Of a stretch of 64,000 bases of DNA, positions 7,925-49,815 are shown one piece after another. The stretch spans positions 62,001 to 126,000 of IMG/VR virus record IMGVR_UViG_3300017971_000008, one strand, 5' to 3'. Under the pieces are notes generated by a model. That model searched no databases. It was not told the DNA's origin and worked only from the letters and a program-made list of their open reading frames with translations. The translations under genes were made by a program, and so were the position numbers. Origin of the DNA: a virus. Every line of letters begins with the position of its first letter. Positions within the stretch are counted from its first letter, which is position 1.

Positions 7925-9736
7925 ATGGCGATATCCCCTGAGGAAGCAAAAGCGGCACGGGCGAGGCTCAATGCCTCAAGACCTAAGATTGTCAGCTCTA
8001 ATCCGCGGCAACAGCGACGGGACGTAGCAGCTTCTTTGCTTCCTGAGGGGGCCACTCTTAGCGTACCTGCGGGTCCTTCTCGACGTATGGGTACCTTTGA
8101 TCCTGCCTTGATGAGCAATTTCGTTGGTGGCGGTGGCGGTGGCCAGACTTTTCAGCACATGCAAAGGCCCTACCTTCCTGAGATCGAATCCCCGGATCGG
8201 ATACAGTACCCGACTGATCGCAGGATGGCGAACTATTATTGGAGGTTGTTTCACAAGTTCGATCCTGTGTTTGGTACCGCCATGGACATGTACTCCGAGA
8301 TGCTGGTTTCGGATTATGATGTGATCGTGGATGAAACCAAAGATAAAGAAATAAACGATACCGTGGACTTGATGTGTGAGAAGACGCACTTTCAGGAAAG
8401 ATGCCGCCAGATGGTGGTGCAGTACAATGTAATCGGTGAAGTGATTCCGCACACATTCTTTGATGAGGACTTAGGTATCTGGACGTATATCGCCATGCAC
8501 AACCCGGATTACATCGAAGTACAGGACTCGCCCATTATCGATATGGACCCGATCATCTCTTTTATACCTGATGACGCTCTCATAGAGCTTTTGTCGGATA
8601 GATCACCAGAGTCTATGGAACTCAGACAGTCCCTGCCCAGCGAGTTTGTGGCGAAGGTACTGGCCCGACAGCCTATCCGGTTGCAGAACTCAAACTGTTC
8701 TTTCATTGCCCGGAAGCTGAATCCTTACGATGAGAGAGGCACCTCCCTGGCGTCCAGGTTGTGGAGAATATGGATGGTGGAGGATGCGGTCTATGCTTCG
8801 ACGATAGCGACCTACCGGCGCCATGCGGCCCCTATCAAGGTGGCTAAATTGGGGGATGCCTCTACCAACTGGATACCCGAGCCTGAGGTAGAGGCCGAGC
8901 TGCTCTCGATGTTGAGCAGGATGGAAACAGATCCACAGGCGTGGCTTGTTTGGAACTATGGCATCCAGTTCGAGGCTTTTGGTACGACTGACAGGGCTGT
9001 CTCAATCAAAGGTGAGCATGATGTTATCGAGAAGGTGAAGCTCCTCGGGATGGGTCTTTCCAAGTCGTTCATGACGGGGGAGGTGACATACGCTAGTGCA
9101 AAGTCAGGTTTGCAGGTCTTTTTACGTAGGCTTTTGTCACTTCGTCAGTACCTCGAAGCTGTGTGGATCTATCCGAAATTCTTCAGGCCTATTTCCCTGG
9201 CGAATGACTGGATAAAGTCCAAGCCCAACGAGGTTGACCATGGTTACCGTGTGAAGAGGACTGCCCAGGAGCTTGAGGAGCAGAAGCTGATCATCATCCC
9301 CAAGCTCAAATGGCACAACAAACTGGACCCCGAGGTAGAGAGCGATGTGCTTCAGGCTTATCTCCAGATGGAAAAGTTCGGGTTCCAGGTATCGAAAGCT
9401 TCTGTCGGCGCCGTGGTGGATTTGGATTGGGAGAACGAACTCCGCAATTCCGCGGAGGAGTTCAAGAAGTCCAAGGAGATTGTGCAGGAGGTTCTCGGGC
9501 CTCAGATGGCCAATCAGTTCTGGATGGAGAAGGCCCCCAAGAAGCCTGGAGGGGCCGCTGGCGGCGGTGCGCCTCCTGGTGGCCCTGGTGGAGGGCAGAA
9601 GCCTCCTGGGGCGGCTGGAGCGCCTCCTGGTGGCCCTAAACCGGATGCAAGCGCACCTCCTGGGTCCGGTGAAGCCGGTGAGCCCGAGGGCGGCATCGAA
9701 AGCCCTGACCAGGGCGGTATGGGTGCTGACCTGTGA
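7925..9736 (+). CDS. portal protein
   Basis: This 603-residue protein matches the myovirus-type portal family by pattern. It has a basic N-terminus, then YYWRLFHKFDPVFGTAMDMY near residue 105, a long helical region with SKSFMTGEVTYASAKSGLQ near 380, and RLLSLRQYLE before a conserved FFRPISLAND-type segment. Portals form the dodecameric channel for DNA packaging at the head vertex. The last 70 residues are a low-complexity Gly/Pro/Ala tail in which an 18-base unit repeats exactly (9569-9586 and 9620-9637). Such a tail is not usual in the family and may be disordered in the tail-joining end. The stop overlaps the next GTG start. Confidence 0.85.
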   Translation: MAISPEEAKAARARLNASRPKIVSSNPRQQRRDVAASLLPEGATLSVPAGPSRRMGTFDPALMSNFVGGGGGGQTFQHMQRPYLPEIESPDRIQYPTDRRMANYYWRLFHKFDPVFGTAMDMYSEMLVSDYDVIVDETKDKEINDTVDLMCEKTHFQERCRQMVVQYNVIGEVIPHTFFDEDLGIWTYIAMHNPDYIEVQDSPIIDMDPIISFIPDDALIELLSDRSPESMELRQSLPSEFVAKVLARQPIRLQNSNCSFIARKLNPYDERGTSLASRLWRIWMVEDAVYASTIATYRRHAAPIKVAKLGDASTNWIPEPEVEAELLSMLSRMETDPQAWLVWNYGIQFEAFGTTDRAVSIKGEHDVIEKVKLLGMGLSKSFMTGEVTYASAKSGLQVFLRRLLSLRQYLEAVWIYPKFFRPISLANDWIKSKPNEVDHGYRVKRTAQELEEQKLIIIPKLKWHNKLDPEVESDVLQAYLQMEKFGFQVSKASVGAVVDLDWENELRNSAEEFKKSKEIVQEVLGPQMANQFWMEKAPKKPGGAAGGGAPPGGPGGGQKPPGAAGAPPGGPKPDASAPPGSGEAGEPEGGIESPDQGGMGADL

Positions 9737-11317: not shown

Positions 11318-12223
11318 ATGTCGTTTAGAAAAACAGCCCAGGTGCAATTCCTTGGTGTGCAACATAAAGGTTTATGGTCTAAGTCAGCTTCGCATTCAAA
11401 GTCTTCCTCGTTCTACATGGAAGAGGACGGCTCTATTGATGTTGAAGCTGCTCTTGATACCGTGGCAGACGCCTATCGGATAAGTCGAGACCCTCGAAAT
11501 TACCTTTTCATACCTCTCAGAGCAAACAGTGCCGACCGTCCCAACAACAACCTGGATGGCTGGGAACTGAACGAACTCCAAAGGTACGATGACATCGTCG
11601 GTGTTCCGGTATACCGAACCTATGATCTCAAACCTCATTTCGTGAACCACAATGCGGCAAACCTTACTTTGAGCCGCGGGGTAATTCTTGACAGCCACCT
11701 TAATACTCAGAACCCGGCAGACGATATGGTCAAGCAGGCTGTGTTCGAGGCAACAGGTAAAGAGGTTGACCGGGATATCTTTGTAGAGCTTCTGGTTGCA
11801 ATGGACACCACGAAGGACCCGGCTCTGGCCGAGGCCTATCGAAACGGTTCTGTAGACAGCTTTTCGATGGGTTGTGATGTTGTGGCAACCCAGTGTTCCG
11901 CTTGCGACAATGTAGCTACCAATGACTTTCAGCTTTGCAGCTGTGTTCGAGGAAAGCATTCCCGGATTCCCGTGGAGTGTCTTGATGGTGAGCGCAGACT
12001 GGCCTGGGAGAAGTGCATGGGCACTATTTTTCAGGAGATTTCAGCAGTAGACGACCCGGCTGATGAGACCGCTTTGGTTCAGGAGGGTATTCTCAAAGTT
12101 GCGGGTGCGAATGGTTTGAACAAACAGCAAATTCAGGAAGTAACCGCTTTTGTAGTACGGCATGCCAAGACTATGCCCGAGGCAGTGGCAGGTATTTTAA
12201 ACCAAGCTTTACAGGGTGGGTAA
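11318..12223 (+). CDS. putative prohead protease
   Basis: This 301-residue protein lies between portal and scaffold/capsid genes, where prohead proteases are found. A candidate catalytic His111 sits in HFVNHN and a candidate Ser183 in SVDSFSMG, reminiscent of the His...Ser-x-Gly pair of the herpes/HK97/T4 gp21 prohead protease fold. Immediately after the serine lies a Cys cluster (Cys186, 193, 196, 207 and 209, including CSAC and CSC) that could hold zinc. I recall this as a feature of a subset of myovirus proteases. Such enzymes degrade scaffold and trim capsid deltas and packaged proteins. Assignment rests on motif spacing and gene order, not on a full match. Confidence 0.6.
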   Translation: MSFRKTAQVQFLGVQHKGLWSKSASHSKSSSFYMEEDGSIDVEAALDTVADAYRISRDPRNYLFIPLRANSADRPNNNLDGWELNELQRYDDIVGVPVYRTYDLKPHFVNHNAANLTLSRGVILDSHLNTQNPADDMVKQAVFEATGKEVDRDIFVELLVAMDTTKDPALAEAYRNGSVDSFSMGCDVVATQCSACDNVATNDFQLCSCVRGKHSRIPVECLDGERRLAWEKCMGTIFQEISAVDDPADETALVQEGILKVAGANGLNKQQIQEVTAFVVRHAKTMPEAVAGILNQALQGG

Positions 12224-12227
12224 TCCA

Positions 12228-14168
<1,941 letters not shown>

Positions 14169-14197
14169 GTCCAAAAGAGAACTGGAAGGAGTGGATC

Positions 14198-14962
14198 ATG
14201 ACTATTGCTGATCCTCAATGGGAGGCTTATCAGAGTGGATTGCCCATCGGCATCGACCTGAAGCGTTCCGACATTGCCAGCAATCTCGGTACTTACGTGG
14301 TAAACAGATCTACCACGTTTCGAGCCGGGATGTTGGTGCAACTCAACAGTTCGCAGGAATTGGTTGTATGCGACGGCACTGCTCCGATGGGCTTTGCAAA
14401 GTACGATGTGGCAACTTCTCTTTATGAGACGGTTGTGGACGAGTACATCCAGCTGAATGGCGTCGTGGCGACCTCTCTTGCGAACGCAAACCTTTACGCG
14501 GGTTCCGGTATCCGCGTGTCCTCCGCAGCCCAGGGCGGCGGCACCACCTATGCGGTGACCACGGATTATACCGTGAGCGCCGTGAACGGTACGGTGACCC
14601 GTGTTGGCGGCGGCTCGATTACGGACGGTCAGTATGTGTATGTCACGTACATGTACGAGATTCCCAACTCGAAGATGCAATTCGAGGGTAAGAATTTCTG
14701 GAACGTCAACAACGCCATCGAGTACACCAATGCGCGGATGACGGTCATCACCGGCCAGAGCATCGTGTTCACCTCGCAGTACGACCCCTCGCGGGTCTAC
14801 GCGGTGGACTCGGTCGTTGAGGCAGGCGCGGTTGGCGACAACCTCGGCGGTCTCGTAACCCTAACCGGCGTGGGTGCAGGTCCGAATATCGGTACCGTAC
14901 TCCAGGTTCCCAGTGCTGCTGATCCCTTCATGGGTATCCGCATGTACGGGCTGCCGCAATAA
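14198..14962 (+). CDS. putative capsid decoration or head-stabilising protein
   Basis: The 254-residue product is beta-rich and Gly/Ser/Thr/Val-rich with few Lys residues, and contains VTRVGGGSITDGQYVYVTYM near the middle. It lies immediately before the major capsid gene with a good AAGGAGTG site 8 bases ahead of the ATG. Many tailed phages encode a decoration protein exactly here. N-terminal residues PLGIGID-like (GLPIGIDLKRSD) may be the trimerising or capsid-contact part. The assignment is from order and composition. Confidence 0.5.
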   Translation: MTIADPQWEAYQSGLPIGIDLKRSDIASNLGTYVVNRSTTFRAGMLVQLNSSQELVVCDGTAPMGFAKYDVATSLYETVVDEYIQLNGVVATSLANANLYAGSGIRVSSAAQGGGTTYAVTTDYTVSAVNGTVTRVGGGSITDGQYVYVTYMYEIPNSKMQFEGKNFWNVNNAIEYTNARMTVITGQSIVFTSQYDPSRVYAVDSVVEAGAVGDNLGGLVTLTGVGAGPNIGTVLQVPSAADPFMGIRMYGLPQ

Positions 14963-14978
14963 GAAAGGACGGAAGACT

Positions 14979-16280
14979 ATGGGAAATCCATACACAAGAG
15001 TCAGTCGTAAAAGTCGTCGTCCTGCCGTTCCTTCTCGTTCAGCGCGAAGGACCAGTAAGCCGCGTCGTCGCCCCATTACCGCAGCCCGTAAGCCGCGTCG
15101 TAAGCCTGCCGCAGCTCCCAAAAGGGGCCGTATGGCAGCGCGTCCGAAACGCCGGTTGACCTCCAAGAGGGATGAGGCTGTATTCGGTCGGGATGGTCAG
15201 TTCAATCCGCAACGATACGATTATGGTGGGTATGACCCCAAGCGTATTGCAAATGCGGTTGGCAATCGCAGACGCCCGATGTTCAACAGTCAGGGTGAGA
15301 TCAACGCCGACAACAAGCGCGATGCGCTGGTGCAGATCAAGCATCTGCTCGGTTCGGTTGGTCCCCGGCATCAGGACGCCCTGAGCCTGTACAATCCCAA
15401 CTCTCCCCAGGAGAAGATGAGCAAAGAAGCACGTAGGGATATCCTTGCTGCCGCGCTCACCGATCCTTCGGGTGCCGGTTGGCACGTTGTTGGTCAGGAA
15501 CTCGCTCTGCCGATCAAGCAGATCCTGGACTATGAAGGGTTCGCCCGGAAATGGTACCAGATCCGCGACCTCGCCCAAGGCGAACTGTTCCGCGTACCCG
15601 TGGATGTTCGTTCGGTGGCCTGGGTTGTCGGTCAGGACGGCCAGGTGCCCGAAGCACGGATCAAATCCAAGTGGATTACGCCGAAAGAGGATAAGATTGT
15701 TTCGTATCCCACCGTGGATATCGAGGACATCTACCACCTCAATTTCGACGTTCTGGACCGCGCCCAGGATACCGCCCGTCAGGAAATCGAGCTGGCTGAA
15801 GACAAGCTCGGCATCCTGCTGGCTGACGCCGCTTCGACCGCGCAGAACACCGTGACCACCTACTCGACTCTCGGTATCAACGCCCTTGAGGACGTTCGGT
15901 TCCAGGTTGAGAGGCACCGCCTCATGGTTGAGAAGTATTTCATCAACCGTGCGGAGCTTTCCGACATCATCAAGACCATGTCGGCTGCGGTGGACCCGGT
16001 TACCGAGCGTGAGTTGATCCTCGCGGGTCACATCGGCAACATCCTGAATGCCCAGATCCTGACTGCTGCCGGGACTGGCGTTGAGGAAGTGATTCCTGCC
16101 GGTACGTTCTACGCCACTACCGCCTCCGAGTACTACGGCGTGATGGGTATTCGCATGGACTTGTTCAGCGAACCCTTCAACAAGTACTCCCACATGGAAA
16201 CCGTTAAAGGCTGGGCCTTTGCGGAGATCGTGGGTTTCGCTTGCGCGAACTCGAAGGCCGTTGCCAAGGGTGTGAAGTAG
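14979..16280 (+). CDS. major capsid protein with basic N-terminal extension
   Basis: The ATG at 14979 follows GGACGGAAG, whereas an upstream in-frame start would run far into the decoration gene. The 433-residue product has a folded part from about residue 140 with LPIKQILDYEGFARKWYQI, a long helix near 265-300 and a C-terminal region with GVMGIRMDL. This fits HK97-fold major capsid proteins of SPO1-like and related myoviruses. Residues 1-64 contain 26 Lys/Arg and no Asp/Glu, which is exceptional for a capsid delta region. That part should face the interior and may be removed by the protease upstream. The gene is followed by a long hairpin. Confidence 0.8.
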   Translation: MGNPYTRVSRKSRRPAVPSRSARRTSKPRRRPITAARKPRRKPAAAPKRGRMAARPKRRLTSKRDEAVFGRDGQFNPQRYDYGGYDPKRIANAVGNRRRPMFNSQGEINADNKRDALVQIKHLLGSVGPRHQDALSLYNPNSPQEKMSKEARRDILAAALTDPSGAGWHVVGQELALPIKQILDYEGFARKWYQIRDLAQGELFRVPVDVRSVAWVVGQDGQVPEARIKSKWITPKEDKIVSYPTVDIEDIYHLNFDVLDRAQDTARQEIELAEDKLGILLADAASTAQNTVTTYSTLGINALEDVRFQVERHRLMVEKYFINRAELSDIIKTMSAAVDPVTERELILAGHIGNILNAQILTAAGTGVEEVIPAGTFYATTASEYYGVMGIRMDLFSEPFNKYSHMETVKGWAFAEIVGFACANSKAVAKGVK

Positions 16281-16390: not shown

Positions 16391-17212
16391 TTGTCGAATG
16401 GCCAACACAACAAAGTTTCAGTTCTTGATGTGGACAACCGGCATATTTCCTATACCAACCCGGCAAAGGCCCGGATATTGGTCAGGGATGGCAGGGCTAC
16501 CGTCTTCAACGCAAACCCATTCATCATAAAGTTGAATGGAGAGAAAAGGACGGACGAAATGAAAAGATTCAGAAAAGCAATCAAGAGCTTCACCGATTAC
16601 TTCAAAGAGGAAAGGGACGTGTATGTTCAGAACCTCTCCAATACCCAGATTTCCCTGGGATTCGGTGTGGCGCCAAACAACTCCTCGGCCCTTATCCCGG
16701 AGACCAGGAAGCCGTACAATCTGTCTCAGTACGTGCCTTTCAAGGATTTGAAGAATTCGGTGGATTTGCGGAAGATGCTGAACCGAAAACCTGCCACGCT
16801 CATTCTTCTGGAAGAGGAAGAGTACAACCAGTTCTATGAGGACCTGGCGGCTAAGAAAGGTACCACCGCGGACGAGGAGATCATCCAGGCCAATGAGGAG
16901 CAGCAGGCCCTGATGAATAGGTCTTCCTATGTGGAGCGCGAGAAGAAGGCTTCAAAGGATGCGGATGAGGCGGTGGAGGAAGAGATTAAAGAGGGTCAGG
17001 CGCCCGATCAGGAGCTGCCTGAGATGCCTCAACCCCGGATTATTGGTATGTGCGCTGATGACAAGCTGACGGCCACTGACTTCCTTGAGAGGTTGAGCAT
17101 GATGGATGATGCCGGTGACCTTTCCGATGCCGATTTCGAGTACCTCCAGAGTAATGCTCCCAAAAAGTCGGTTAAGAACTGGGCGGTTAAGCAGCTACAG
17201 TCTTCAGACTGA
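16391..17212 (+). CDS. structural-module protein with PLMP/RRXRR-like N-terminus
   Basis: The most upstream start is TTG at 16391, and a GTG at 16430 is possible. I prefer TTG because it keeps an N-terminal motif: VSVLDVDNRHISYTNPAKAR, then LVRDGRATVFNANPFIIKL (residues 9-46). This resembles the short domain with conserved PARAR...LLRxGKAxV...PFxIxL known from the N-terminus of IscB-type proteins, here without any nuclease. The remaining 225 residues are charged and helical with an acidic stretch near 190-215. The gene directly follows the major capsid gene. Role unknown. Confidence 0.6.
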   Translation: MSNGQHNKVSVLDVDNRHISYTNPAKARILVRDGRATVFNANPFIIKLNGEKRTDEMKRFRKAIKSFTDYFKEERDVYVQNLSNTQISLGFGVAPNNSSALIPETRKPYNLSQYVPFKDLKNSVDLRKMLNRKPATLILLEEEEYNQFYEDLAAKKGTTADEEIIQANEEQQALMNRSSYVEREKKASKDADEAVEEEIKEGQAPDQELPEMPQPRIIGMCADDKLTATDFLERLSMMDDAGDLSDADFEYLQSNAPKKSVKNWAVKQLQSSD

Positions 17213-18099: not shown

Positions 18100-18420
18100 A
18101 TGAAACATTCAGATTTTATTAAGGGTGTGAACAGGAATGTAGCCAAAACTCTTAAAGCACAAGAAGACTTGGAGAACGACCTGACAGAACTTCAGGAAAA
18201 GCTTATGCAAGTAGAGTCTAAGATGAATGCTGTTGAATTTGCTGTACGGCAGCTTAGAAGTTTGGCTCCAGATAGGATATCTGAAGTTGAAATGGCTAAA
18301 TCAGGTTGGGCTGACTCTGTGTCTCGATATTCGGATGATGCTTATTATTCTGTTGAGGATTTGCTTAATTTGATTATAGAAATACAACAGTTAGAATCTT
18401 TTAATCGTGGTGCGTACTAA
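18100..18420 (+). CDS. leader-bearing small coiled-coil protein
   Basis: The 106-residue product begins MKHSDFIKGVNRNVAKTLKA, closely resembling the N-terminus of the gene at 21566 (MRHEKFMKDVRRNAGRAVKG). Residues 20-60 are a heptad-like coiled coil, and the rest is acidic and helical. The shared basic leader on different bodies suggests a sorting signal. AGGAGAAACTG precedes the start. No enzymatic motif. Confidence 0.55.
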   Translation: MKHSDFIKGVNRNVAKTLKAQEDLENDLTELQEKLMQVESKMNAVEFAVRQLRSLAPDRISEVEMAKSGWADSVSRYSDDAYYSVEDLLNLIIEIQQLESFNRGAY

Positions 18421-18832: not shown

Positions 18833-19102
18833 ATGAGACTCAGAGGGTTATCGGATAAAGGTGTTTGCCGGATTTCCAAGAAGGTTGCGGCAAAAAAAGC
18901 GGTCAGTGATGATCAGACCTGGGACAAGATAGACTTTCTCGTAGAAATGTTGGGCAACGAGGAGTTCATTCTGGCCACCTACAAAGGTATGGGCAGAGAG
19001 GAAGCTGACAGCATGATCGATTTCCTGTTCCAGACCTATGACTTGGGTAGGGAGTGGGATATTCATACTGGGGCGGTAGATCCTGACGATGAGGACTACT
19101 AA
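18833..19102 (+). CDS. leader-bearing small acidic protein
   Basis: The 89-residue product starts MRLRGLSDKGVCRISKK, one of four closely similar leaders (others at 19555, 25019 and 25566). After the leader and a Lys/Ala linker the body is helical and ends very acidic (VDPDDEDY). An AGGAGAAG site precedes the ATG. The body has no motif I recognise. Confidence 0.55.
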   Translation: MRLRGLSDKGVCRISKKVAAKKAVSDDQTWDKIDFLVEMLGNEEFILATYKGMGREEADSMIDFLFQTYDLGREWDIHTGAVDPDDEDY

Positions 19103-19555: not shown

Positions 19556-20229
19556 TGAGACTCAAAGGAATTACAAGTAAGGGCATGCAGCGGGTCGCTA
19601 AGACTGTTAAGGGGCAGGGTTCCTCTCCTGTGGATGATTTGGAGAAGCACGGTACTGTCACCATTCAGTATCTTTATGGGGGTGGAGAGATTTCCATAAA
19701 TGAGATCGATGACAGCTTTTTCGTGCACGTTTCCTTCCCAGATGGAAAGTCTGAGGAGTTCGATGCTGATGTGGGTTCTACTAATGCAGAGGAAGTAGTT
19801 GACCGTGCTATGGGGGTCTATGAGGAAGGTCTGGGCGGTGCTTATGCTGAGGAAGGCTATGAGAGGTCTTTCGACTATAAGTGGCACGTATACGGTAGTA
19901 GTTCTGTCCTGCGAGTTGGTGAACGCTCGGACATTGGTAGACTTCTTAGTCGCGGCATTCATGCTGGGGGCTACGATGCCGCGTATGAGGGTGGTGACTG
20001 GGAATCGAATCTGGAGAGACGGTACGAAGAGGGGGGAGACTACTACGTAGAAGACGAGACTTTTGAAGCGGGTTATATCCTCGCTTTTATCCCTGGTAGT
20101 ACCGACAACTGGATGTGGGACGAGGATTATCTGGATGCTTGGAACGCATATGGGAAAGATGCCCAGGCTCTAGGAATTGCGGTAGATGACCCTTGGGAAG
20201 CCCAACAGGAAGATGATACGTGGGATTAG
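19555..20229 (+). CDS. leader-bearing protein of unknown function
   Basis: ATG at 19555 is chosen because TGATG coupling and the leader MRLKGITSKGMQRVAKTVKG match the sister genes. A TTG at 19552 would add one residue. The 224-residue product continues with GQGSS, a motif also seen in the 21566 gene, and a very acidic, Tyr/Trp/Gly-rich body that includes GGAYAEEGYERSFDYKWHVY and ends DDPWEAQQEDDTWD. I recognise no family. It may be a packaged protein, judging only from the leader. Confidence 0.55.
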   Translation: MRLKGITSKGMQRVAKTVKGQGSSPVDDLEKHGTVTIQYLYGGGEISINEIDDSFFVHVSFPDGKSEEFDADVGSTNAEEVVDRAMGVYEEGLGGAYAEEGYERSFDYKWHVYGSSSVLRVGERSDIGRLLSRGIHAGGYDAAYEGGDWESNLERRYEEGGDYYVEDETFEAGYILAFIPGSTDNWMWDEDYLDAWNAYGKDAQALGIAVDDPWEAQQEDDTWD

Positions 20230-20257
20230 TGTGATAGCAAAGCTAAGGAGATAAAAA

Positions 20258-20641
20258 ATGAGTAGCTTACTCACAATAGTAGGAACGCTCACGTTCCCAA
20301 CAGTAAAAGGTGGACCTGATACCAGTACGGTACTCGGTGCCCCCACAGTAACCCCGTCCTCATCTTCAGGACCACAACTGACCTACGAGGAGGGTGGCTC
20401 AAGCTCGTACCTCGTTGCGGTTGGTGCGCCTGTGGCCATCCCGTTCGGTACTTTGGCAAGTGCTGACGCGGTGTACGTGGGTTCTGACCAGGCGGTGGAC
20501 ATCGTTCTGGATGGCGGGTCCGAGAAGATAAGCCTTGCGGCTGACGGTTTCATCCTGCTTTCCAAGGCAGGTGTTGCGTCGATGACCGTTGAGGCCAACG
20601 CCGTGGATGCCAATGTGGTGGTGATTCTTCTGGGAGACTAG
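20258..20641 (+). CDS. beta-rich virion-type protein
   Basis: The 127-residue product is almost free of Lys and Arg and rich in V, A, G, S and T, with alternating hydrophobic strands (SLAADGFILLSKAGVASMTV). Composition resembles capsid decoration or neck proteins rather than enzymes. AAGGAGATAAAA precedes the ATG. No family is recognised. Confidence 0.5.
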   Translation: MSSLLTIVGTLTFPTVKGGPDTSTVLGAPTVTPSSSSGPQLTYEEGGSSSYLVAVGAPVAIPFGTLASADAVYVGSDQAVDIVLDGGSEKISLAADGFILLSKAGVASMTVEANAVDANVVVILLGD

Positions 20642-20644
20642 GGA

Positions 20645-21556
20645 ATGATAATCAATGCTGAACCAGGATTGGATGTCCCGAGCGTAGTGGACATGATTGA
20701 GGTCATGCGGCTCAACTCGAATCGCGTGGCCGATGTCACCTTACTGGATGAGAATGGAGACCCCCAGGACATTATCGAGGAGACTCCCGCATCGGGGCTT
20801 CCTCGGGGTGAACTTGATCTGGACATCACGGACATCGGCGGGACCTCCATCTACCAGGAGGACTACTACCCGCCTTCAGTAGGGATTCCCGCTGACCGCA
20901 GGATAGTCCACAACAGCACGGGCAAGTATTCCATCAAGGTGCTGCCCACTGACATTTCCACTAGCGGAACCTACCTATTCAACTGGCATGCCCGGTATGA
21001 CTCGGACTCCGAGGACATCTACCGCACCCAGGTCATGCAGGTGGTGTCACCGCGGGTCCTGTCGTTGTTACCGACCTTCAGACTGATTATTGATAAGAGT
21101 GTGAAGCGTGTAGTCCCAGAATCCATGTGTTTTTTAGGTTACAGCGATTCTCAACTGATCGTCTACCTCATGCAGGGTCTTTCATATATCAACAGCAAAC
21201 CGCCCTACCCTGTGTGGAACTACCTGGAGAACTACCCTATTGAGCAGTACTCGGACGTACTCATCAGGTCGGCGCTGTACATCGGGATCACCTCGCAGTC
21301 TTTGTTTGCGATAGACACCGATGTTCCTTCATACAATGACCAGGGTCATAGCTTTGTGCTTCAGCACTTTCAGGCGCTGAACACGATGTTGAACCAGCTT
21401 CGTGCGGAGCTGGACAAGCAGATACCTGATTTGAAGAAAAAGTTTGTGAGGTCCGGGACGGCCATGATCGAGACGCGGCTGGGGTACCTCTGGTACAACC
21501 TGATAGCCTCGTCGCCTTCAGGGTCCACGTTCAGGAATTACTATTTTAATAGCTAG
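20645..21556 (+). CDS. putative head-tail connector or neck protein
   Basis: This 303-residue protein has a beta-rich N-terminal half containing IYRTQVMQVV after a DSDSED turn, and a helical C-terminal half with long amphipathic helices (LNTMLNQLRAELDKQIPDLK). The combination of an Ig-like N-terminal part and helical bundle resembles neck proteins of several myoviruses, but I cannot name a family with confidence. The start lies 3 bases after the preceding stop. Confidence 0.45.
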   Translation: MIINAEPGLDVPSVVDMIEVMRLNSNRVADVTLLDENGDPQDIIEETPASGLPRGELDLDITDIGGTSIYQEDYYPPSVGIPADRRIVHNSTGKYSIKVLPTDISTSGTYLFNWHARYDSDSEDIYRTQVMQVVSPRVLSLLPTFRLIIDKSVKRVVPESMCFLGYSDSQLIVYLMQGLSYINSKPPYPVWNYLENYPIEQYSDVLIRSALYIGITSQSLFAIDTDVPSYNDQGHSFVLQHFQALNTMLNQLRAELDKQIPDLKKKFVRSGTAMIETRLGYLWYNLIASSPSGSTFRNYYFNS

Positions 21557-21565
21557 GAGAGACCG

Positions 21566-21859
21566 ATGAGACATGAAAAGTTTATGAAGGATGTGCGGAG
21601 AAATGCTGGCAGGGCTGTCAAAGGTCAGGGTGAATCCTGGGGGGATGTTGCCGACCAAAGTGCCGAACTTCAGGAGAAGTTTGAGGTTGCGTTGGACGAT
21701 GCTGCTCAGGCGTATGCTCGGTCTTTGCAGGAGTTCTCTAGCAGGGAGGACTTGGATGAGGCTCATGGTTTTGAGGGGTTCCTTGAAGACTATATGGCGA
21801 ATCATGATGTAGGGCAGGAGCTGCTGGATTGGATAGGGCAGTATTTGCGAGGTTATTAG
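21566..21859 (+). CDS. leader-bearing small acidic protein
   Basis: The 97-residue product starts MRHEKFMKDVRRNAGRAVKG followed by QGES, a class II leader shared with the gene at 18100 and the KGQG element shared with 19555. The body is short, acidic and helical with no motif. GGAGAGACCG precedes the ATG. Confidence 0.55.
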   Translation: MRHEKFMKDVRRNAGRAVKGQGESWGDVADQSAELQEKFEVALDDAAQAYARSLQEFSSREDLDEAHGFEGFLEDYMANHDVGQELLDWIGQYLRGY

Positions 21860-23462: not shown

Positions 23463-23918
23463 GTGGCTATTTTAAATAAATTTTGTCCTAAGTGTGAGAT
23501 GACTAAATCTGTAAAATATTTTTATAAAAATGCTGCGGCTCCTGATGGCTTGGACTCGCGTTGTAAAGAGTGCACCAGTAAGCTTGATAAGGAGAGAAAG
23601 AGTAAGCTTAATTATCCTAGGAGAAAGGCCAAGTCGGGATCTGCTGTTGAGGCACTTGGTTGTACGGGAGAGGAGTTTCGTGTTTATTTAGAGGCTAAGT
23701 TTTACCCTCATCCAGAGACTGGAGAGGAGATGACCTGGAATAACTGGTCACAGACAGGTTGGCATATTGATCATATTGTTCCTCTTTCTTCTGTTGATCT
23801 TTCGGATGCAGCGCAGATGCTGAAGGTGTGCCATTATTCAAACACGCAACCTTTATGGATGGTGGAGAATTTAAGAAAAGGTTCTAAACTTTCCGATGTT
23901 GGGGGCGACGATGGTTGA
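23463..23918 (+). CDS. free-standing HNH endonuclease, one zinc finger
   Basis: The 151-residue product starts (GTG) with CPKC...CKEC, a zinc finger near residues 8-39. The HNH core HIDHIVPLSS is near residue 101 and NTQPLWMVENLRKG near 130, giving the two His and the Asn of the motif. The gene is clearly more AT-rich than its neighbours and lies between two structural genes. It is a mobile homing-type endonuclease rather than a phage function. It is a relative of the larger gene at 48976. No intron or intein is evident, since both flanking genes look intact. It ends 8 bases inside the next gene. Confidence 0.8.
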   Translation: MAILNKFCPKCEMTKSVKYFYKNAAAPDGLDSRCKECTSKLDKERKSKLNYPRRKAKSGSAVEALGCTGEEFRVYLEAKFYPHPETGEEMTWNNWSQTGWHIDHIVPLSSVDLSDAAQMLKVCHYSNTQPLWMVENLRKGSKLSDVGGDDG

Positions 23919-24208: not shown

Positions 24209-24820
24209 ATGAGATTGAATATGAAACGTCTGGCCAGGGTTATCAGGGCCAATGGAGACGATGAAGAGAAATCGGAAAAGCCTTCCAAGAAGTGCAAACA
24301 GGAAGACATGATCAAGTTCCTCAAGGAGAACCCGAACCCCACTGATGAAGAGTTTCACGAGTGGGCTGAGGGCAACGGTTTCGATGTTCCAAGTGCAGAG
24401 GCCAAGATGTACGAACTGGCCACCATGTATGTTCGGATTCTGAGTGAGGGAAGGGCCGATGAGGATGGCATAGACTCGATTGATGTTGATCCTAAAGAGC
24501 TTGAGCTGGGAAAAGAGATCGAATTGGAACACATCGACGACGAGGATGTGTCCGAGGAGATTGCCCTGGACCATCTGGCCGAGATGCCTGACTACTACAC
24601 CGAGTTGAAGAAGATGGAGGAGAAGGGTGCTCGTCTGGTTAAGGGTCAGGCTGCTTGGAGTCACGTTCAATATCTTATTGGTCTTATTGAAAAGTATATG
24701 GATGACAGTGAAATGTTGGATGCTGTTTTGGATATTCTAGGGGTTCAGAGGTCTGAGGAAGTTCTGGAGAAGATTATTCAGACGCATCCATCACTTTCGT
24801 ATGAGCGAGGGGAGGGTTGA
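24209..24820 (+). CDS. DUF5661-like protein with extra helical tail and leader
   Basis: The 203-residue protein starts MRLNMKRLARVIRANG, a basic leader-like segment. Residues 35-140 contain NPTDEEFHEWAEGNGFDVP, EGRADEDGID, and IALDHLAEMPDYYTELKKME, a pattern I recall from the phage-associated DUF5661 family of unknown function. After this comes ARLVKGQAAW, which resembles the leader ends of sister genes, and a 60-residue helical tail. Codons in the tail are AT-richer than in the first part, which fits a fusion of two genes at an internal leader. Confidence 0.55.
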   Translation: MRLNMKRLARVIRANGDDEEKSEKPSKKCKQEDMIKFLKENPNPTDEEFHEWAEGNGFDVPSAEAKMYELATMYVRILSEGRADEDGIDSIDVDPKELELGKEIELEHIDDEDVSEEIALDHLAEMPDYYTELKKMEEKGARLVKGQAAWSHVQYLIGLIEKYMDDSEMLDAVLDILGVQRSEEVLEKIIQTHPSLSYERGEG

Positions 24821-25016
24821 GGGTTCTTTGCGTTTGACTGATTTGGATTTGTCTGATTTTAAAATGGAAAATGGAAGAGAAATCTTCGATTCAGACGAGA
24901 AGGTAAGATGTTTTGAGAAATATCTTCAAGAGAAAACGGAGAAGATTTTTAAGCAGTATCAAGAAGCTCATATGAAGGCGTTGGTGCTCTCAAAGTATAG
25001 GATTATAGGGGTGTAA
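24801..25016 (+). CDS. small basic/acidic helical protein, start uncertain
   Basis: ATG at 24801 overlaps the previous gene by 20 bases and would give 71 residues. An in-frame TTG at 24828 follows GGGAGGGTTGAGGG and would give 62 residues starting MRLTDLDLSDF, which fits the MRL-type leaders of neighbouring genes better. The rest is a charged helix. Reality of the gene is likely, because the stop abuts the next start, but modestly supported. Confidence 0.4.
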   Translation: MSEGRVEGSLRLTDLDLSDFKMENGREIFDSDEKVRCFEKYLQEKTEKIFKQYQEAHMKALVLSKYRIIGV

Positions 25017-25018
25017 GC

Positions 25019-25561
25019 ATGAGGCTCAAAGGGCTTTCAGATGCGGCTATGAGGCGGGTTGCTGCTCTTGATACCTGGCGTAACCTGGATTCAGACATCG
25101 AAGATGCACTTCAGCATCAGATGGTAGAGCTTGATTTACCCAATGGGGTACTGGACCCCAGCTTTTTTGATATTAAAAAGGTAGAGTCCTTTGACTACCG
25201 GGTACTCATGGAGAACTATGCCCCTGATGTATTCGGGGGATGGGGTTTTGGCGAGTTCTTGGAGTCTGGGTACTCTGCTGAAGAGATCGAGGATGAACTA
25301 GCTTCTTTTCGTGGAGATGATTGGGCTGGACTTGTGTTGAACGAGTGGCTTGTGGAGGGGTTCCCTGCGATAGTGGTGATCGACGGTTTTCCTGATGAGC
25401 TTTCTGAACACCTTGTTGATGAGGAACTTCAGGATTATGCTATAGTATTTAATGAGATTTCGGATGGTCGTGGACGGGCTTCGGCAGCTTATGGTTTTGG
25501 TATTGAGACACTCCCTGCTGTAATACTGACACCTAAAAACCTTTATGAAGGGGAATGGTAG
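25019..25561 (+). CDS. leader-bearing protein of unknown function
   Basis: The 180-residue product begins MRLKGLSDAAMRRVAALD, the clearest class I leader. The body is acidic with Trp/Phe/Gly-rich turns (DVFGGWGFGEFLESG), a hydrophobic strand (FPAIVVIDGFPDE) and a C-terminal ETLPAVILTPKNLYEGEW. This alternation looks like an alpha/beta enzyme or toxin-like fold, but no catalytic motif is evident. Placed directly before a nucleotidyltransferase-like gene with the same leader. Confidence 0.55.
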   Translation: MRLKGLSDAAMRRVAALDTWRNLDSDIEDALQHQMVELDLPNGVLDPSFFDIKKVESFDYRVLMENYAPDVFGGWGFGEFLESGYSAEEIEDELASFRGDDWAGLVLNEWLVEGFPAIVVIDGFPDELSEHLVDEELQDYAIVFNEISDGRGRASAAYGFGIETLPAVILTPKNLYEGEW

Positions 25562-25565
25562 ATGG

Positions 25566-25940
25566 ATGAGGCTCCAAGGTCTTTCAGATATGGCAGTGAA
25601 AAGAATAGCCATGAAGAATCTCACCGAGGCTCCTTTGAAAGGTTGGACTTTGAGTGAGGCACAGGACTTTTTGAGTGCTGTTAAGCCGATATTTGAGAGG
25701 TATGGGGTTGATTTAGAATTGGTTGGTTCCATAGAGTCTGTTGGTTCATCTGAACATGACTTGGACCTGGTTATGGGTACGCCTTCTGATGACATGGACG
25801 GGGCTTGGTTCGATGCTGTTGAGGCCGATCTTCTGCGGGAATTTCCAGGGGCGGTTATGGAAGGTAATATGTACGAACCTTTAGAGACTCTGCACCTTCC
25901 CGATGGACGGATAGTAGACTTTTTCTACGGGGAGGACTGA
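25566..25940 (+). CDS. leader-bearing nucleotidyltransferase-like protein
   Basis: ATG 25566 is chosen because it yields the leader MRLQGLSDMAVKRIAMKN. An upstream ATG at 25545 overlaps the preceding gene. In the 124-residue product, LELVGSIESVGSSEHDLDLVM (split as GS, a short loop, then SEHDLDL) matches the GS...DxD active-site pattern of minimal (MNT-like) nucleotidyltransferases. A later HLPDGRIVDFFY strand could supply the third Asp. Such enzymes transfer NMP to proteins, RNA or small molecules, and several belong to toxin-antitoxin pairs. The leader suggests the enzyme travels with the virion. Confidence 0.6.
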   Translation: MRLQGLSDMAVKRIAMKNLTEAPLKGWTLSEAQDFLSAVKPIFERYGVDLELVGSIESVGSSEHDLDLVMGTPSDDMDGAWFDAVEADLLREFPGAVMEGNMYEPLETLHLPDGRIVDFFYGED

Positions 25941-27106
25941 TGGCTGACGAAAACCTATATGACCGCGGTTACAAGGTTACGGAACCTTTCGACCCGAATG
26001 ATCCGCCGAAGTTCGGGCAGCTCGTAGAGACCACGAAAGATACCTTTGTCACTGAGCTGACCAATTACTTTGATTACCAGACCGCCAATGCGGCTGAGAA
26101 GCTAACTGAGACCCCCACCATCCAGAAGTTTGCTCTTGGCGCCGGTACAGGAGAGCAGACCCTCCAGGAGGTAGTCAACCTCATCATGTCGCATGCCGAT
26201 ACCGAGGATAAGTACCCCATGATCGCCGTGACTTCGGCCAGTTTCCGGGAAAGGAAGTTGGGCATCGGTTCGGCGCTCGTAATGCCCGTGCAGTACCCTC
26301 CGAGCATTGTCAGCACTGAGAAAGGTCCGTTTAACTTGACGGACGGCTGGACCTTGGAGATCAAGACCTGGCCTACAGGATTTTCGGAACCCGAAGTTAC
26401 TTCGACGATTACCTTTGCGAGTGCCTTGTTCGCGGATATTACCAACGTGACCGTGGAGGAACTCGTCAGCGCGATAAACCGTTCCCAGGCCCTGTACTAC
26501 CAGTTTAGCGTGACCGCGGATGGGTACCTCAGGATCTCCACAGGAGGCCCTTGTGCGGTACCGACTCCGAATTACATTGAGGTAACTGGAGGAGACGCCG
26601 ATTGTCTGCTGGCGCTGGGGTTCACTGTGGGCCAGTCGGATACGTACCTTAATACGTCCAATCCCCCCAAGAATAGGTACATGAGTGCTGGTGATCTGAC
26701 TGTGAATATCGATGTGGTTACTGACGATATCAATGTAAGAACGGAACTTTGTGACCTTGTACAGCATTTTTTCACGTTCTGGATAGAGCGCCGAAGGTAT
26801 CAGTTTATCGGAAGGTCGTATCGGGATCGGAGTATCGATCCTGAGGAATGGTGGCACATCGTTCTTCAAAGCCAGTTTAACTGGTCAGGAGAGCTGGCCA
26901 CTCCACGGCAGGGCGGAACCGAGCAGTATGACTACGTTTTCGCTAATCGAGGGTCTGTTCCCGTGTTGAGTACGGATGCTGTTGATCGCAAGGTTGTTAC
27001 ACCTCCTGTGTTCCTTGATAGGGACAAAATTGTTGAGGATGAGGCTGGTGTGATTCCCGCGGGTGATTATTTTCAGACTGACTGGACAAAGTACCCCGGA
27101 AGTTAA
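25940..27106 (+). CDS. putative tail-completion or sheath-terminator protein
   Basis: The 388-residue protein starts with ATG overlapping the previous stop (TGATG) and is the last gene before the sheath. Residues 129-227 hold a beta domain (long strand, then NVTVEELVSAINRSQALYYQ, then strands) that recurs in the sheath and in the 45354 protein. The C-terminal region with FFTFWIERRRYQFIGRSYRD and WWHIVLQSQFNWSGE resembles the ring-forming terminator part of myoviral tail-completion proteins. Assignment is from position and domain sharing. Confidence 0.5.
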   Translation: MADENLYDRGYKVTEPFDPNDPPKFGQLVETTKDTFVTELTNYFDYQTANAAEKLTETPTIQKFALGAGTGEQTLQEVVNLIMSHADTEDKYPMIAVTSASFRERKLGIGSALVMPVQYPPSIVSTEKGPFNLTDGWTLEIKTWPTGFSEPEVTSTITFASALFADITNVTVEELVSAINRSQALYYQFSVTADGYLRISTGGPCAVPTPNYIEVTGGDADCLLALGFTVGQSDTYLNTSNPPKNRYMSAGDLTVNIDVVTDDINVRTELCDLVQHFFTFWIERRRYQFIGRSYRDRSIDPEEWWHIVLQSQFNWSGELATPRQGGTEQYDYVFANRGSVPVLSTDAVDRKVVTPPVFLDRDKIVEDEAGVIPAGDYFQTDWTKYPGS

Positions 27107-45354: not shown

Positions 45355-48300
45355 TGGCATTTGAAGACGTATATCGGTACAACGAGCTGATTGATGGGGT
45401 TATCGGCGGTGATTTTTACAAGTCCCTCGGGATGGTCATACCTTACAGATCAGGGAACACTGAAATACGTCTTGAGACGAGTTCTCCTAATACGGAATTC
45501 GGTTTGTACTTGAACGAGGCCTTTTCTGGTACAGTCAGGTCTGATGCTCAGGGTAATGTGGTATTCAGTCGGCATTTCGATTTTGGTGAGTATGAAATTG
45601 CGTTGTTGAACAATGTTACGGGGCGCAGGCTCCCTTCCTGGGTCACTGTTCGGGATTACGCCATCTGGCTGGTTTCCTATGCAGAAGTCTTTGAATCCAT
45701 CGATGACAATATTCAGGAAGCTCAGGATGACCTTTCGATAGAGACCTCTACGCTCAACGGTATCGAGGATCATTTTGGAAAGGCCATTGAGACCTACAAT
45801 AATTTGGGTCAGGGCCTGGATGCCTACCGGAACATGATTCACGAGCTGCGTCTGGGTTATCGGAATTTCGGGGCGAGGTTCCGCGGACTTGAAACTGCGG
45901 TGGCCGCATTCACCCAGGTGCCTCCTTTCGGGTACACGCGGAGGATGTGGGGTCCGAACTGGTGGCTTAACCACTCAATGTCGAATAATTTCAGATTTTT
46001 GAAACGGTCGCATGCCATCTCATTTGCAGGTGCCGGTATCCCAGGTGTGCAGCTCGTGGAAGCGGAACCTGATGCTGAATCGTGGTATTTTTACACGTTG
46101 GACTATGATGCGGGTACGAACGAACTGACTTGGAATGTTGCAGGTACGCCTGGGCCAGCGGTTCCCGCAGCTGACGGTGTTTTATTTATACCTGGGCCTC
46201 CATCTCTCATGATAGCTCATATATTGGGTTTTGCTGGACCTTTTGCGATAACTGCAAGTGTAAATGACAGGCTTTACCTGAATGTCGATGATCTAGGTTC
46301 TATTGAGATATCGTTGACAACTGGTGGTGCTGTTCTTCTGGCTACGATAATAACAGACATAAACAACGCTTTGGTTGCTGATCCCCGTTACGGTGCCGGG
46401 TACGCAGCTTTTGCATCATCTTATAATTCCAAACTCTTATTGGAGTCTCCTCTTCCTGCTGCTGGTACGTCTGTAGTGCTTGAGCATGGTTCTCGCAACG
46501 CGGCTCCAGAGTTGTTTGGAATCAGGCCGAGAGATTTGGTTTATCATCGACCAGTTGCTGATGGTATCTATATAAAAAATATCGAAGGTGTTCCTGACCT
46601 GACTGGGAATGCTGAGATTGAATATGAGTATGACGGTAGTGTAGATCCTGTGACCAGAAGGCTTCGTTTCAGATCGAACGGTGCGGCATGGAGTGGTTGG
46701 CTCTCTATTACAGATCCTGGAGACTACTCTTTGACGGACGGAAATTCTGTCATTTTGACAGTGGGCTGTTTACTTGATTTGATGGAGGTTCTCTCATCTC
46801 CTTGGCCTGCGACCACGGTTTATTCATTTTCGATAGGTTATGGGCGCGTTCATAGGAACGTAGGCTATCAACAAGGACTTCGGGTTGTTTGTGATGCGGC
46901 CAGTCTTCCGAGCATAAATACTTCTGATACTGTTAACATTGTGGACGATGTTACTGCTGGACATCTTCTACACCCAGATGGCTGGTGGCTCGAAAATCCT
47001 GTAGGGGCTTTGGTTACCGCTATTAGTGCTAGTCCGAGTGTAATCACAGACAAGGCCGATCCCTTTGACCATGCTCCAGCTTTTATGTGGTTGATTGCAG
47101 AATTTGGTACTGAGACTCAATTAGAGATTAGGTCTCATGTTCTGAAACATCCTATGCCGCGTCCAGGCCCCCGCGGTTCCAACTATCCACAACGAAGTTC
47201 TGGTATGTTTTATGACTATGAAGGTTTTGAAGCTAAACTTTCTGGTTGGTTTTTGAGTAGTTTTGCAGGCGCAGCCACGGTTACTCCTGGATTTTCTTTT
47301 GATGGGGGTTCCACTTGGGTTGACGGTGCTCCTGTTGCAGTACCTGAAGACGCAGGTGCTCAACACTATGAGGAATTTGGGTACGCTGAGTTTGAGACCG
47401 TAATACCTCCTGGTGTTACTGATAATGGTATTCTGGCCAGGTTTGTTTTTGACAAAGCTTCCGGTGGCATGGCTTTCACTGTTGATGGGGTGAATGTCGG
47501 TGTGAATCTCATTTCGTCTACCTATCTGGGAAATGTCACTACTCCCAGGAGTAGGCACAGACAGAATTTTGGTGAGCTTGTGTGGCTCTGGGCACCTACT
47601 CCGTTGACCTTGACCGAGAAGGAGTATCTGGGGCTGCGGCATAAGAGGCCTTCGCTCAGGACTCCCGTGGCTGGGGTGGAGATTACCGTTGTTTCTGGTG
47701 ACACTCCAGCGGGTGTAGGGCGGCTTGAATATGAGTACAATCGGGTGGGCGATACGCGCAGGTTGCGTTGGATGTCTTATCAAAGCTCATTCGGTGCCTG
47801 GGTATCGATTCTCAGTGATGGTTCGTACACGCTTTTGTCGGCTGATGGGTCCAGTATCACCGTGTACGCTACAAGGGCGCTCTTACCGATTCTGACGGGC
47901 TCCCCTCCTGCGGTGACTACCTACAGGGATGTGACGATTACGGACCAGACAGTGAACCAGGGGCACGTCAGACGCATTTCAGCGGCACAGTCCTCGATAG
48001 ATGTTCTGGATGTGACTGAATACGATGTCAGCGGAGAGCCTACAAATCTGTACGGGGCCTTGACCGAGGCTGATTTCAGCGCAGCTGGATTGGTGAATTC
48101 AGATATTGAGCCAGCAGATCCGTTCAAAGAGTCTTTCGTGTTTCCTGAGTTTCCTCCACAGGAGGGTGAGATTCTGTCCTTTTCTCCTTCTGGGCCGAAC
48201 TGGGTGGCTACGTTGGATTACTATTCGGATGAGGACCAGACCAACACCCTTCTGTACGAGGATGGTTTGTTGGTTCCGAATGACTTGTGGTCGTTTTCTG

Positions 48301-48959
48301 CGGCGAATGAAATCACTTTGACCTCTTTTTCGGCTGGGGCTGAGTACACCGTGGATTACGGGCTTTTGTACCAGGTTACCACCGACCTCCTGGACCTGTC
48401 CGGGATTACTGTATCTGATTACATTTGGCTGGCCGACTACATGCTGTGGGACCGGATGGACAAGGTGCAGGACGCCTATGAGTCCGCGATTCCGGTTTAT
48501 TTCAACCCGAATAACGGGAGAGCTGGTTTGGTAGGAGAATCCGATCAGAATAAGGCCACGTCTTCTCTGGTTATCCAGGACGGGACTTCCACGATTATTG
48601 TGGCTCAGAGATACTGGAGATTTGTGGACGCGAAGACGATTGAGCTTGATTTGGCGCAGCTTGTTAGAGGTGCTCAGTATTTTCTTACCCATAATGAGCT
48701 TAGGGTGTACCCGGAGAGCAGGCTTACCTCGGTGTTCGAGCATCGTTCAGGTGCTACTGAACTCGCATGTCTGGCTGCCAGTTGGTCTACTGTTGAGCGA
48801 AACGAGAATGTGAGGAATGATCATGACTTTCATCAGTTGCGGTTGTCTGTTACAGGTATACGAGATTTGAGAGATTTTAGGATTAGGTCCCTGGTGTTGA
48901 AGGGGCTGCATGCCTTTGGGGCAAATGCGTGGGTTCCAGGTTTAACTGGTCCTGCCTGA
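45354..48959 (+). CDS. very large baseplate or tail-fibre attachment protein
   Basis: The 1,201-residue protein begins with a helical/beta section containing LETSSPNTEFGLYLNEAFSG. Near residues 300-385 it holds the INxAL-type beta domain seen in the sheath. Near 403-500 and 772-870 it holds two copies of another unit with LEYEYN...RRLRW and YTLLSADGSS. The N-terminal part of the tail spike at 49812 has a related unit. The C-terminal part repeats the pattern found in receptor-complex proteins. A structural link between baseplate and spike is inferred. Confidence 0.55.
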   Translation: MAFEDVYRYNELIDGVIGGDFYKSLGMVIPYRSGNTEIRLETSSPNTEFGLYLNEAFSGTVRSDAQGNVVFSRHFDFGEYEIALLNNVTGRRLPSWVTVRDYAIWLVSYAEVFESIDDNIQEAQDDLSIETSTLNGIEDHFGKAIETYNNLGQGLDAYRNMIHELRLGYRNFGARFRGLETAVAAFTQVPPFGYTRRMWGPNWWLNHSMSNNFRFLKRSHAISFAGAGIPGVQLVEAEPDAESWYFYTLDYDAGTNELTWNVAGTPGPAVPAADGVLFIPGPPSLMIAHILGFAGPFAITASVNDRLYLNVDDLGSIEISLTTGGAVLLATIITDINNALVADPRYGAGYAAFASSYNSKLLLESPLPAAGTSVVLEHGSRNAAPELFGIRPRDLVYHRPVADGIYIKNIEGVPDLTGNAEIEYEYDGSVDPVTRRLRFRSNGAAWSGWLSITDPGDYSLTDGNSVILTVGCLLDLMEVLSSPWPATTVYSFSIGYGRVHRNVGYQQGLRVVCDAASLPSINTSDTVNIVDDVTAGHLLHPDGWWLENPVGALVTAISASPSVITDKADPFDHAPAFMWLIAEFGTETQLEIRSHVLKHPMPRPGPRGSNYPQRSSGMFYDYEGFEAKLSGWFLSSFAGAATVTPGFSFDGGSTWVDGAPVAVPEDAGAQHYEEFGYAEFETVIPPGVTDNGILARFVFDKASGGMAFTVDGVNVGVNLISSTYLGNVTTPRSRHRQNFGELVWLWAPTPLTLTEKEYLGLRHKRPSLRTPVAGVEITVVSGDTPAGVGRLEYEYNRVGDTRRLRWMSYQSSFGAWVSILSDGSYTLLSADGSSITVYATRALLPILTGSPPAVTTYRDVTITDQTVNQGHVRRISAAQSSIDVLDVTEYDVSGEPTNLYGALTEADFSAAGLVNSDIEPADPFKESFVFPEFPPQEGEILSFSPSGPNWVATLDYYSDEDQTNTLLYEDGLLVPNDLWSFSAANEITLTSFSAGAEYTVDYGLLYQVTTDLLDLSGITVSDYIWLADYMLWDRMDKVQDAYESAIPVYFNPNNGRAGLVGESDQNKATSSLVIQDGTSTIIVAQRYWRFVDAKTIELDLAQLVRGAQYFLTHNELRVYPESRLTSVFEHRSGATELACLAASWSTVERNENVRNDHDFHQLRLSVTGIRDLRDFRIRSLVLKGLHAFGANAWVPGLTGPA

Positions 48960-48975
48960 TATGAGGAGTAGCTAG

Positions 48976-49815
48976 GTGGATGAGCAAAAGAAAAAGTGTA
49001 ATGTTTGTGAGGCTGTGTTGCTTTTATCTAATTTTTCTAAAGCTCCTACTTGCCGAGATGGCTATCGCGGTGACTGTAAAAAGTGTGTTGCTGCAAAGTA
49101 TCGTGTACGCAGAGCGAAGAAAAAAGAGAATTTTAAGAAACCTGATATGACTGGTTCCAAGAGGTGTACGCAGTGTGCTTTAGAAAAACCAGTAGCAGAT
49201 TTTTACTTTAAAGTGGAGTCCTCTGATGGTTTTGCTTCCCATTGTAAAGAATGTCAGGCTACTCTTAGTAGGTTGAATAAACAGAGCAAAGACCGACCGA
49301 GACGTGTTGTCGGGTTTAAGCTATGTAGTAAGTGCGGTCTTGAGAAGGCTGTGGAAGATTTCCCTTCTGTCAAGAGTTCTCCTGATGGTTTAGGTTGCCA
49401 GTGCAAGTGTTGTGGTCTTGATTATCAGTCTGATCGAAGACGCACCCATATCTTTACCAAGCTGTCTCATAGGTTGGATACTCGTGCGAGAAAACATAAA
49501 CCTCATATTGTTAAGTGTGGTTCGCCTCTTAAGTTTTTAGGCTGTACTATAAAGGAATTTGCGAAGCACCTAGAATCTTTATTTTTTGAGCATCCTCGTA
49601 CTGGGGATTTGATGGTTTGGGATAATTGGGGTCGTCATACGAAAGATGGTCCTAAGACTTGGCAACTCGACCATATAAAACCTTTGTCTAGTTTTGATCT
49701 GACTGATAAGGATCAACTTTCAGAGGCTTATCATTATACGAATATTCGGCCTTTGTGGGGAGAGTACAATTTGTCTAACCCCAAAAATATAGTTAGCAAA
49801 GAGGTAACACAATGA
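48976..49815 (+). CDS. free-standing HNH endonuclease, three zinc fingers
   Basis: The 279-residue product (GTG start after GGAGTAGCTAG) has three successive CxxC...CxxC fingers (CNVC...CKKC, CTQC...CKEC, CSKC...CKCC) in the first 160 residues. The HNH core is WQLDHIKPLSSF, with NIRPLWGEYNLSNP closing the motif. It is a larger relative of the gene at 23463. It is AT-rich and inserted just before the tail spike gene, overlapping its start by 4 bases (ATGA). It is a mobile homing-type nuclease. Confidence 0.85.
   Translation: MDEQKKKCNVCEAVLLLSNFSKAPTCRDGYRGDCKKCVAAKYRVRRAKKKENFKKPDMTGSKRCTQCALEKPVADFYFKVESSDGFASHCKECQATLSRLNKQSKDRPRRVVGFKLCSKCGLEKAVEDFPSVKSSPDGLGCQCKCCGLDYQSDRRRTHIFTKLSHRLDTRARKHKPHIVKCGSPLKFLGCTIKEFAKHLESLFFEHPRTGDLMVWDNWGRHTKDGPKTWQLDHIKPLSSFDLTDKDQLSEAYHYTNIRPLWGEYNLSNPKNIVSKEVTQ

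Follow-up and report, generated by a model that had tools for sequence, protein, structure and literature searches.

A nucleotidyltransferase-like protein with a shared N-terminal leader in an uncultivated phage, and its possible delivery by the virion

Positions 62001-126000 of the 157,936-base virus record IMGVR_UViG_3300017971_000008, a stretch of 64,000 nucleotides referred to here as the window, contain a gene at 25566-25940 whose 124-amino-acid product combines a short N-terminal leader with the active-site pattern of a minimal nucleotidyltransferase (NTase). We favor the reading, with a probability of about one half, that the product is a stand-alone minimal NTase of the DNA polymerase beta (Pol-beta) type, that its leader acts like a capsid-targeting signal, and that the virion delivers it for early action on a target in the host. 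The steps that we infer for this protein are its packaging, processing and ejection, its catalysis and its target. Virion delivery of leader-bearing proteins is supported indirectly, because the leader marks more than 20 small acidic proteins of a large tailed phage with a prohead protease and because the leader of a relative is fused to ArdA, an antirestriction protein of use early in infection. More tentatively, a capsid-targeting signal that is novel within the libraries searched might mark an extensive and rapidly changing set of acidic injected proteins in this clade of uncultivated phages, including a stand-alone NTase that would modify a host or defence target at entry. To our knowledge, no minimal NTase delivered by a phage virion has been described previously.

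Active-Site Motif and Predicted Fold

The open reading frame (ORF) starts at 25566 and its stop codon ends at 25940; the product reads MRLQGLSDMAVKRIAMKN...LELVGSIESVGSSEHDLDLVMG...LPDGRIVDFFYGED and opens with the leader MRLQGLSDMAVKRIA. An alternative in-frame ATG is present at 25545, but alignment of the leaders favors the start at 25566, and on the opposite strand the mirrored frame is broken by stops. The motif stretch in full, LVGSIESVGSSEHDLDLVMG (VGS-x9-DLDL), fits hG[GS]x9-13Dh[DE]h exactly and, with D118 as the later acid, completes the Pol-beta NTase pattern hG[GS]x9-13Dh[DE]h...D. The active-site pattern GS...SEHDLDL, pointed out in an earlier note made from the sequence alone, is thus borne out, and the two aspartates and third acid for which that note proposed a check are all present in the sequence (D65, D67 and the candidate D118). 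Shuffling of the same protein produced the motif in 0.75% of cases, and the motif together with a later hydrophobic-acid-hydrophobic strand in 0.073%. Elsewhere in the record the short motif occurs in one other called gene, a 67-amino-acid ORF.

Structure prediction, another check proposed in the earlier note, agrees with the motif. Two AlphaFold2 models were made from the single sequence without an alignment because no homologue was present in the searched data. In the full-length model (predicted local distance difference test score, pLDDT, 66; predicted template modeling score, pTM, 0.60) the leader is unstructured, and the model of the body only is better defined (pLDDT 78.3, pTM 0.67; 76-78 across five models). 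The latter has the predicted topology of a minimal NTase, in the order helix, strand (LELVGS), strand (DLDLVM), helix and three strands (H-E-E-H-E-E-E), ending in IVDFFY, with D118 falling in predicted strand 116-121. In Foldseek searches of the PDB, the 50 best matches to the full-length model all belonged to the Pol-beta superfamily, as did 49 of the 50 best matches to the body model, the exception being a Rel enzyme. They include polymerases lambda, mu and beta, terminal deoxynucleotidyltransferase (TdT) or a TdT chimera, Cid1, TUT7 and the CCA-adding enzyme, with match probabilities of up to 0.99. A Pol-beta NTase fold for this product is likely, if unproven.

A Leader Shared by Unrelated Acidic Proteins

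Each of the 5,510 possible starts in the record was scored against six seed leader sequences. Twenty-two starts, including the six seeds, scored at least 44, the next best reaching 31; addition of a degenerate leader on a DUF5661 protein (window position 24209) and of a leader at record position 45917 brings the total to 24 leader proteins. The leader is real and far above chance. It is cationic and amphipathic, and exists in two wordings, M[KR]LxG[LI]SDxxVxR[IV]A (class 1) and M[KR]HxDFIKxVxxNA (class 2). The genes form three clusters in the record (11.5-15.3 kb, 46-50.7 kb and 80.1-87.9 kb), the third of which is window 18.1-25.9 kb, downstream of the genes for the portal, head maturation protease and major capsid protein. 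The other two clusters (record 11536-15322 and 45917-50680; loci L003 and L005) are far from the structural block and encode orphan acidic bodies.

Relatives were retrieved via the portal and via alignment of capsid proteins; a pattern search of IMG/VR with the leader had no matches, nor did a tail sheath query to IMG/VR or the leader as a tblastn query against phages. Exact degenerate DNA patterns for the window leader and the NTase motif also had no matches in the scanned collections, indicating the absence of that exact wording only, since such patterns match locally. Related leaders of slightly altered wording (e.g., MKARGISDEGLKRVANVVKAQ, MKRGISDEGVRRIAQAQ) were found in a 170-kb relative and no fewer than twelve further contigs. 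The 58 hits to the leader regular expression lie on one strand per contig, which is the strand of the structural genes wherever such genes are present.

The bodies behind the leaders are mutually unrelated in sequence and differ even between close relatives. They share a strong acidity, which was never a selection criterion in the leader searches. In the record their median net charge per 100 amino acids is -17.5, while that of comparably sized other genes is -1.6 (p = 2e-12); the NTase-like body has -18.3. The 35 leader bodies in relatives carry -16.1 per 100 amino acids compared to -2.2 in the remaining ORFs at these loci (p = 1.5e-16), in rows that are not fully independent as some contigs are close kin and families recur.

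One clear fusion to ArdA, together with weaker matches, underlies the functional class assigned to the leader proteins. In one relative (L036:15619-16383), the leader MRVSGISNKGFSRIAQ (residues 1-27) is directly fused to ArdA (residues 28-191; PF07275, 5.8e-34; phrog_2059, 8.9e-41), which is the best functional clue to leader-bearing proteins. A KTSC body follows the leader in L022, a DUF7249 body does so in the window phage itself (record 46356), and a body in L042 (14392) has a weak match to a McrBC inhibitor (E 2.7e-4). No other leader protein is as widespread in the clade as the one with DUF5661, which is found behind the leader in the window and in several relatives; the literature searched contained no discussion of this domain. 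Synechococcus phages, and a Vibrio phage protein with the annotation DUF2213, likewise contain DUF5661-like sequence. Two further proteins of L042 were observed. The body of the leader protein at 20612-21064 opens with NVLYHATPFRLVDRILREGL (VLYHAT) and resembles, as judged by eye and with no Pfam match, ADP-ribosyltransferase or Tpt1-like motifs, making it possibly a second leader-bearing enzyme. At 19664-20395, a DUF5661-like leader protein runs on in frame, within a single ORF of 244 amino acids, into a second complete leader (MKLGGITNQGIRRISRRMGQ) and VDPATG repeats, the result of either a fusion or an internal start.

The acidity of the entire leader class, ArdA included, and of the NTase-like body in particular would also be expected of a packaged antirestriction-type decoy, in which the NTase-like fold serves as the scaffold of an acidic DNA mimic or inhibitor that binds a defence enzyme on entry, as ArdA does, catalysis having been lost or become irrelevant. 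We consider this unlikely, as the GS and three acids are retained in the right order and strands, for which a pure decoy has no need.

Structural Genes, Leader Processing and Genomic Setting

Features of the window that bear on the NTase-like protein are compiled in Table 1.

Table 1. Coordinates of the NTase-like protein, other leader proteins and structural genes in the window.
Feature	Position	Strand	Evidence
Portal protein	7925..9736	+	phrog_16240, 1e-72
Head maturation (prohead) protease, candidate leader-processing enzyme	11318..12223	+	phrog_18299, 4.3e-30
Major capsid protein; start uncertain, placed at MGNPYTRV (residue 36 of the open frame)	14979..16280	+	phrog_2522, 9.3e-62
Class 2 leader protein MKHSDFIKGVNRNVAK	18100..18420	+	leader scan
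Class 1 leader protein MRLRGLSDKGVCRISK	18833..19102	+	leader scan
Class 1 leader protein MRLKGITSKGMQRVAK, 224 amino acids	19555..20229	+	leader scan
Class 2 leader protein MRHEKFMKDVRRNAGR	21566..21859	+	leader scan
DUF5661 protein with degenerate leader MRLNMKRLARVIRANG; ortholog in a relative opens MKTIRDQGFHRIYKSLYGQQ	24209..24820	+	Pfam DUF5661, 2.2e-13; orthologs
Neighboring leader protein MRLKGLSDAAMRRVAA..., 180 amino acids, unknown body	25019..25561	+	leader scan
Leader-bearing minimal NTase-like protein, 124 amino acids	25566..25940	+	ORF and translation, motif test, fold
Shared N-terminal leader MRLQGLSDMAVKRIAM, class 1: M[KR]LxG[LI]SDxxVxR[IV]A	25566..25613	+	N-termini of all starts in the record scanned for similarity
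Active-site motif VGSIESVGSSEHDLDL (G54, S55, D65, D67), residues 53-68	25722..25769	+	sequence; hG[GS]x9-13Dh[DE]h
Strand IVDFF; D118 is the candidate third catalytic acid	25911..25925	+	strand 116-121 in model
Conserved structural-block gene directly downstream, its ATG overlapping the NTase gene stop	25940..27106	+	orthologs in four relatives

The NTase gene closes a tight run of genes, overlapping by its stop the ATG of a conserved gene of the structural block. The DUF5661 gene of the 170-kb relative directly abuts the ortholog of that conserved gene, indicating that the genes at 24801, 25019 and 25566 are extra in the window phage; the NTase gene thus occupies a variable slot between conserved structural genes. 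Its leader-bearing neighbor at 25019 had no significant match in Pfam or PHROG. Endonuclease VII/HNH-like genes and an RRXRR gene, likely homing endonucleases, are also inserted among the structural genes (window 23463-23918, 48976-49815 and 16391-17212), one of them between the conserved gene at 22433 and leader genes.

A possible trace of processing by the head protease is the sequence hydrophobic-x-[GA]-Q, which ends 17 of 58 leaders (in the region of amino acids 15-26) and is found in 1.1% of random windows, making it a candidate processing site. It is absent from the scaffold, protease and portal proteins. A single universal cleavage site for the leaders was not established.

The location of leader genes amid head and neck genes could alternatively mean that the leader serves as an internal-head or scaffold-binding signal on proteins that are structural, helping assembly or filling the head with no role in a new host; T4 IPIII, for instance, also influences head assembly (PMC9026906). 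This seems improbable to us given that the bodies are mutually unrelated and vary between close relatives, and that bodies such as ArdA, KTSC and the NTase-like one are not of a structural kind. Another option is that late proteins are sent elsewhere in the producing cell by a cationic amphipathic N-terminus, e.g., to a replication compartment, the membrane or DNA, where the NTase would modify host or phage molecules. We consider such a non-virion role improbable; against it speak the placement in the structural block, the prohead protease in the genome and the presence of ArdA, a protein most useful on entry.

Evaluation of the Proposed Role

Several results weigh against a virion-delivered NTase. 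Searches of Pfam, PHROGs and NCBIfam found nothing above cut-off for the NTase-like protein, the sole Pfam lead, itself in keeping with the NTase reading, being the Pol-beta palm domain PF22600 at E 0.078 and 13.5 bits, below the cut-off of 27. No homologues of the NTase body were found in IMG/VR, phages, plasmids, Virus Rctr197k or 29 related virus records. The Foldseek E-values are about 1e-2, with TM-scores of 0.39-0.61 and root-mean-square deviations of 4-7 A, for a model made without an alignment. As to delivery, the leader was not found in the structurally related Rctr197k or in many more distant relatives, the candidate processing site is absent from the leader of the NTase-like protein, and the bodies are acidic whereas the internal proteins of T4 are basic. 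PF01909 and PF18765 were likewise not found in the record by profile search. A profile match is the usual, not a necessary, sign of membership of the Pol-beta superfamily. That there is no NTase at all, the GS...DLD run being a chance match in an orphan acidic protein, would accord with the lack of a family match, the weak fold-search E-values and the frequency of the short motif in shuffles (about 0.75%, with some 24 leader proteins on offer), but the motif, the third acid and the predicted fold agree independently and the fold matches are almost exclusively to the Pol-beta superfamily, and we give it little credence.

Under the favored reading of a virion-delivered NTase, docking of the protein in the prohead core during head assembly would fall to the cationic amphipathic leader, which might then be trimmed by the head maturation protease of the phage, and the acidic body would be ejected along with the DNA. 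In the new host, D65, D67 and D118 with metal and a nucleoside triphosphate would transfer a nucleoside monophosphate (NMP) to some early target, the likeliest being a host or defence protein or a tRNA. Should the leader prove to be a virion-targeting signal, any gene of the clade that starts with it becomes a candidate for an injected effector or anti-defence protein, including dozens of orphans lacking a recognizable domain.

Comparison with Known Systems

The leader fits a capsid-targeting signal like those of the T4 internal proteins and P1 DarB, albeit with acidic cargo. Literature searches on virion leader systems yielded chiefly work on T4, P1 and SPN3US. The internal proteins of T4 have little in common beyond the capsid targeting sequence and have been described as a defence against host nucleases (PMC3012670, PMC9026906). 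A reporter is directed into the capsid or head of P1 by no more than the first 30 residues of DarB (PMC9024508). Features of such cargo are found here also, namely a short N-terminus shared by unrelated proteins (24 in the record and 35 in relatives), a prohead protease and, in a relative, a counter-defence protein, ArdA.

Like the window phage, T4 places a short common N-terminus on small unrelated proteins (IPI, IPII and IPIII, and Alt), has a head protease, and uses the cargo in proposed anti-defence or host-takeover roles. The leader of the window phage is longer and of different sequence (about 16-20 amino acids, [KR]xxG[IL]SDxGxxR[IV]A), and marks about 24 proteins per genome as compared to 3-4 in T4. 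T4 has the ADP-ribosyltransferase Alt, and we know of no NTase reported for it. If our reading is correct, the leader would differ as a delivery tag from those used by T4 and P1, and with a virion-borne minimal NTase the covalent modifications made at phage entry would include NMP transfer as well as ADP-ribosylation (T4 Alt).

The Dar system of P1 also relies on an N-terminal signal, which gives head localization of antirestriction proteins (PMC9024508). Its cargo proteins are few, DarB being very large, whereas many small proteins have a common leader here. The ArdA of the relative L036, fused to the same kind of leader, gives the cargo class a known function, although the window protein itself is not ArdA.

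The earlier note considered a free-standing minimal NTase delivered by a virion to be unusual. In part this needs amending, as minimal Pol-beta NTases related to antitoxin NTases, and modifying proteins, have already been predicted in injected polyvalent proteins of conjugative elements; it stands insofar as these predictions do not concern phages (Iyer et al., 2017; PMC5512222). Those enzymes resemble the one proposed here in being minimal Pol-beta NTases predicted to enter with the DNA and to modify a protein (PMC5512222). The window protein differs from them in being solo and in having a leader of phage virion type.

The NTases of MntA/HepT (minimal nucleotidyltransferase-HEPN, MNT-HEPN) systems are small and stand-alone, with GS-x(9-10)-DxD and a third acid. 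A toxin-antitoxin pair of this kind was rejected for the window, no R-x4-6-H being present in the neighboring products of 24801-25016 and 25019-25561, the sequences of which were read. The window protein differs from MntA/HepT NTases in that it is encoded in a phage structural block and carries the leader.
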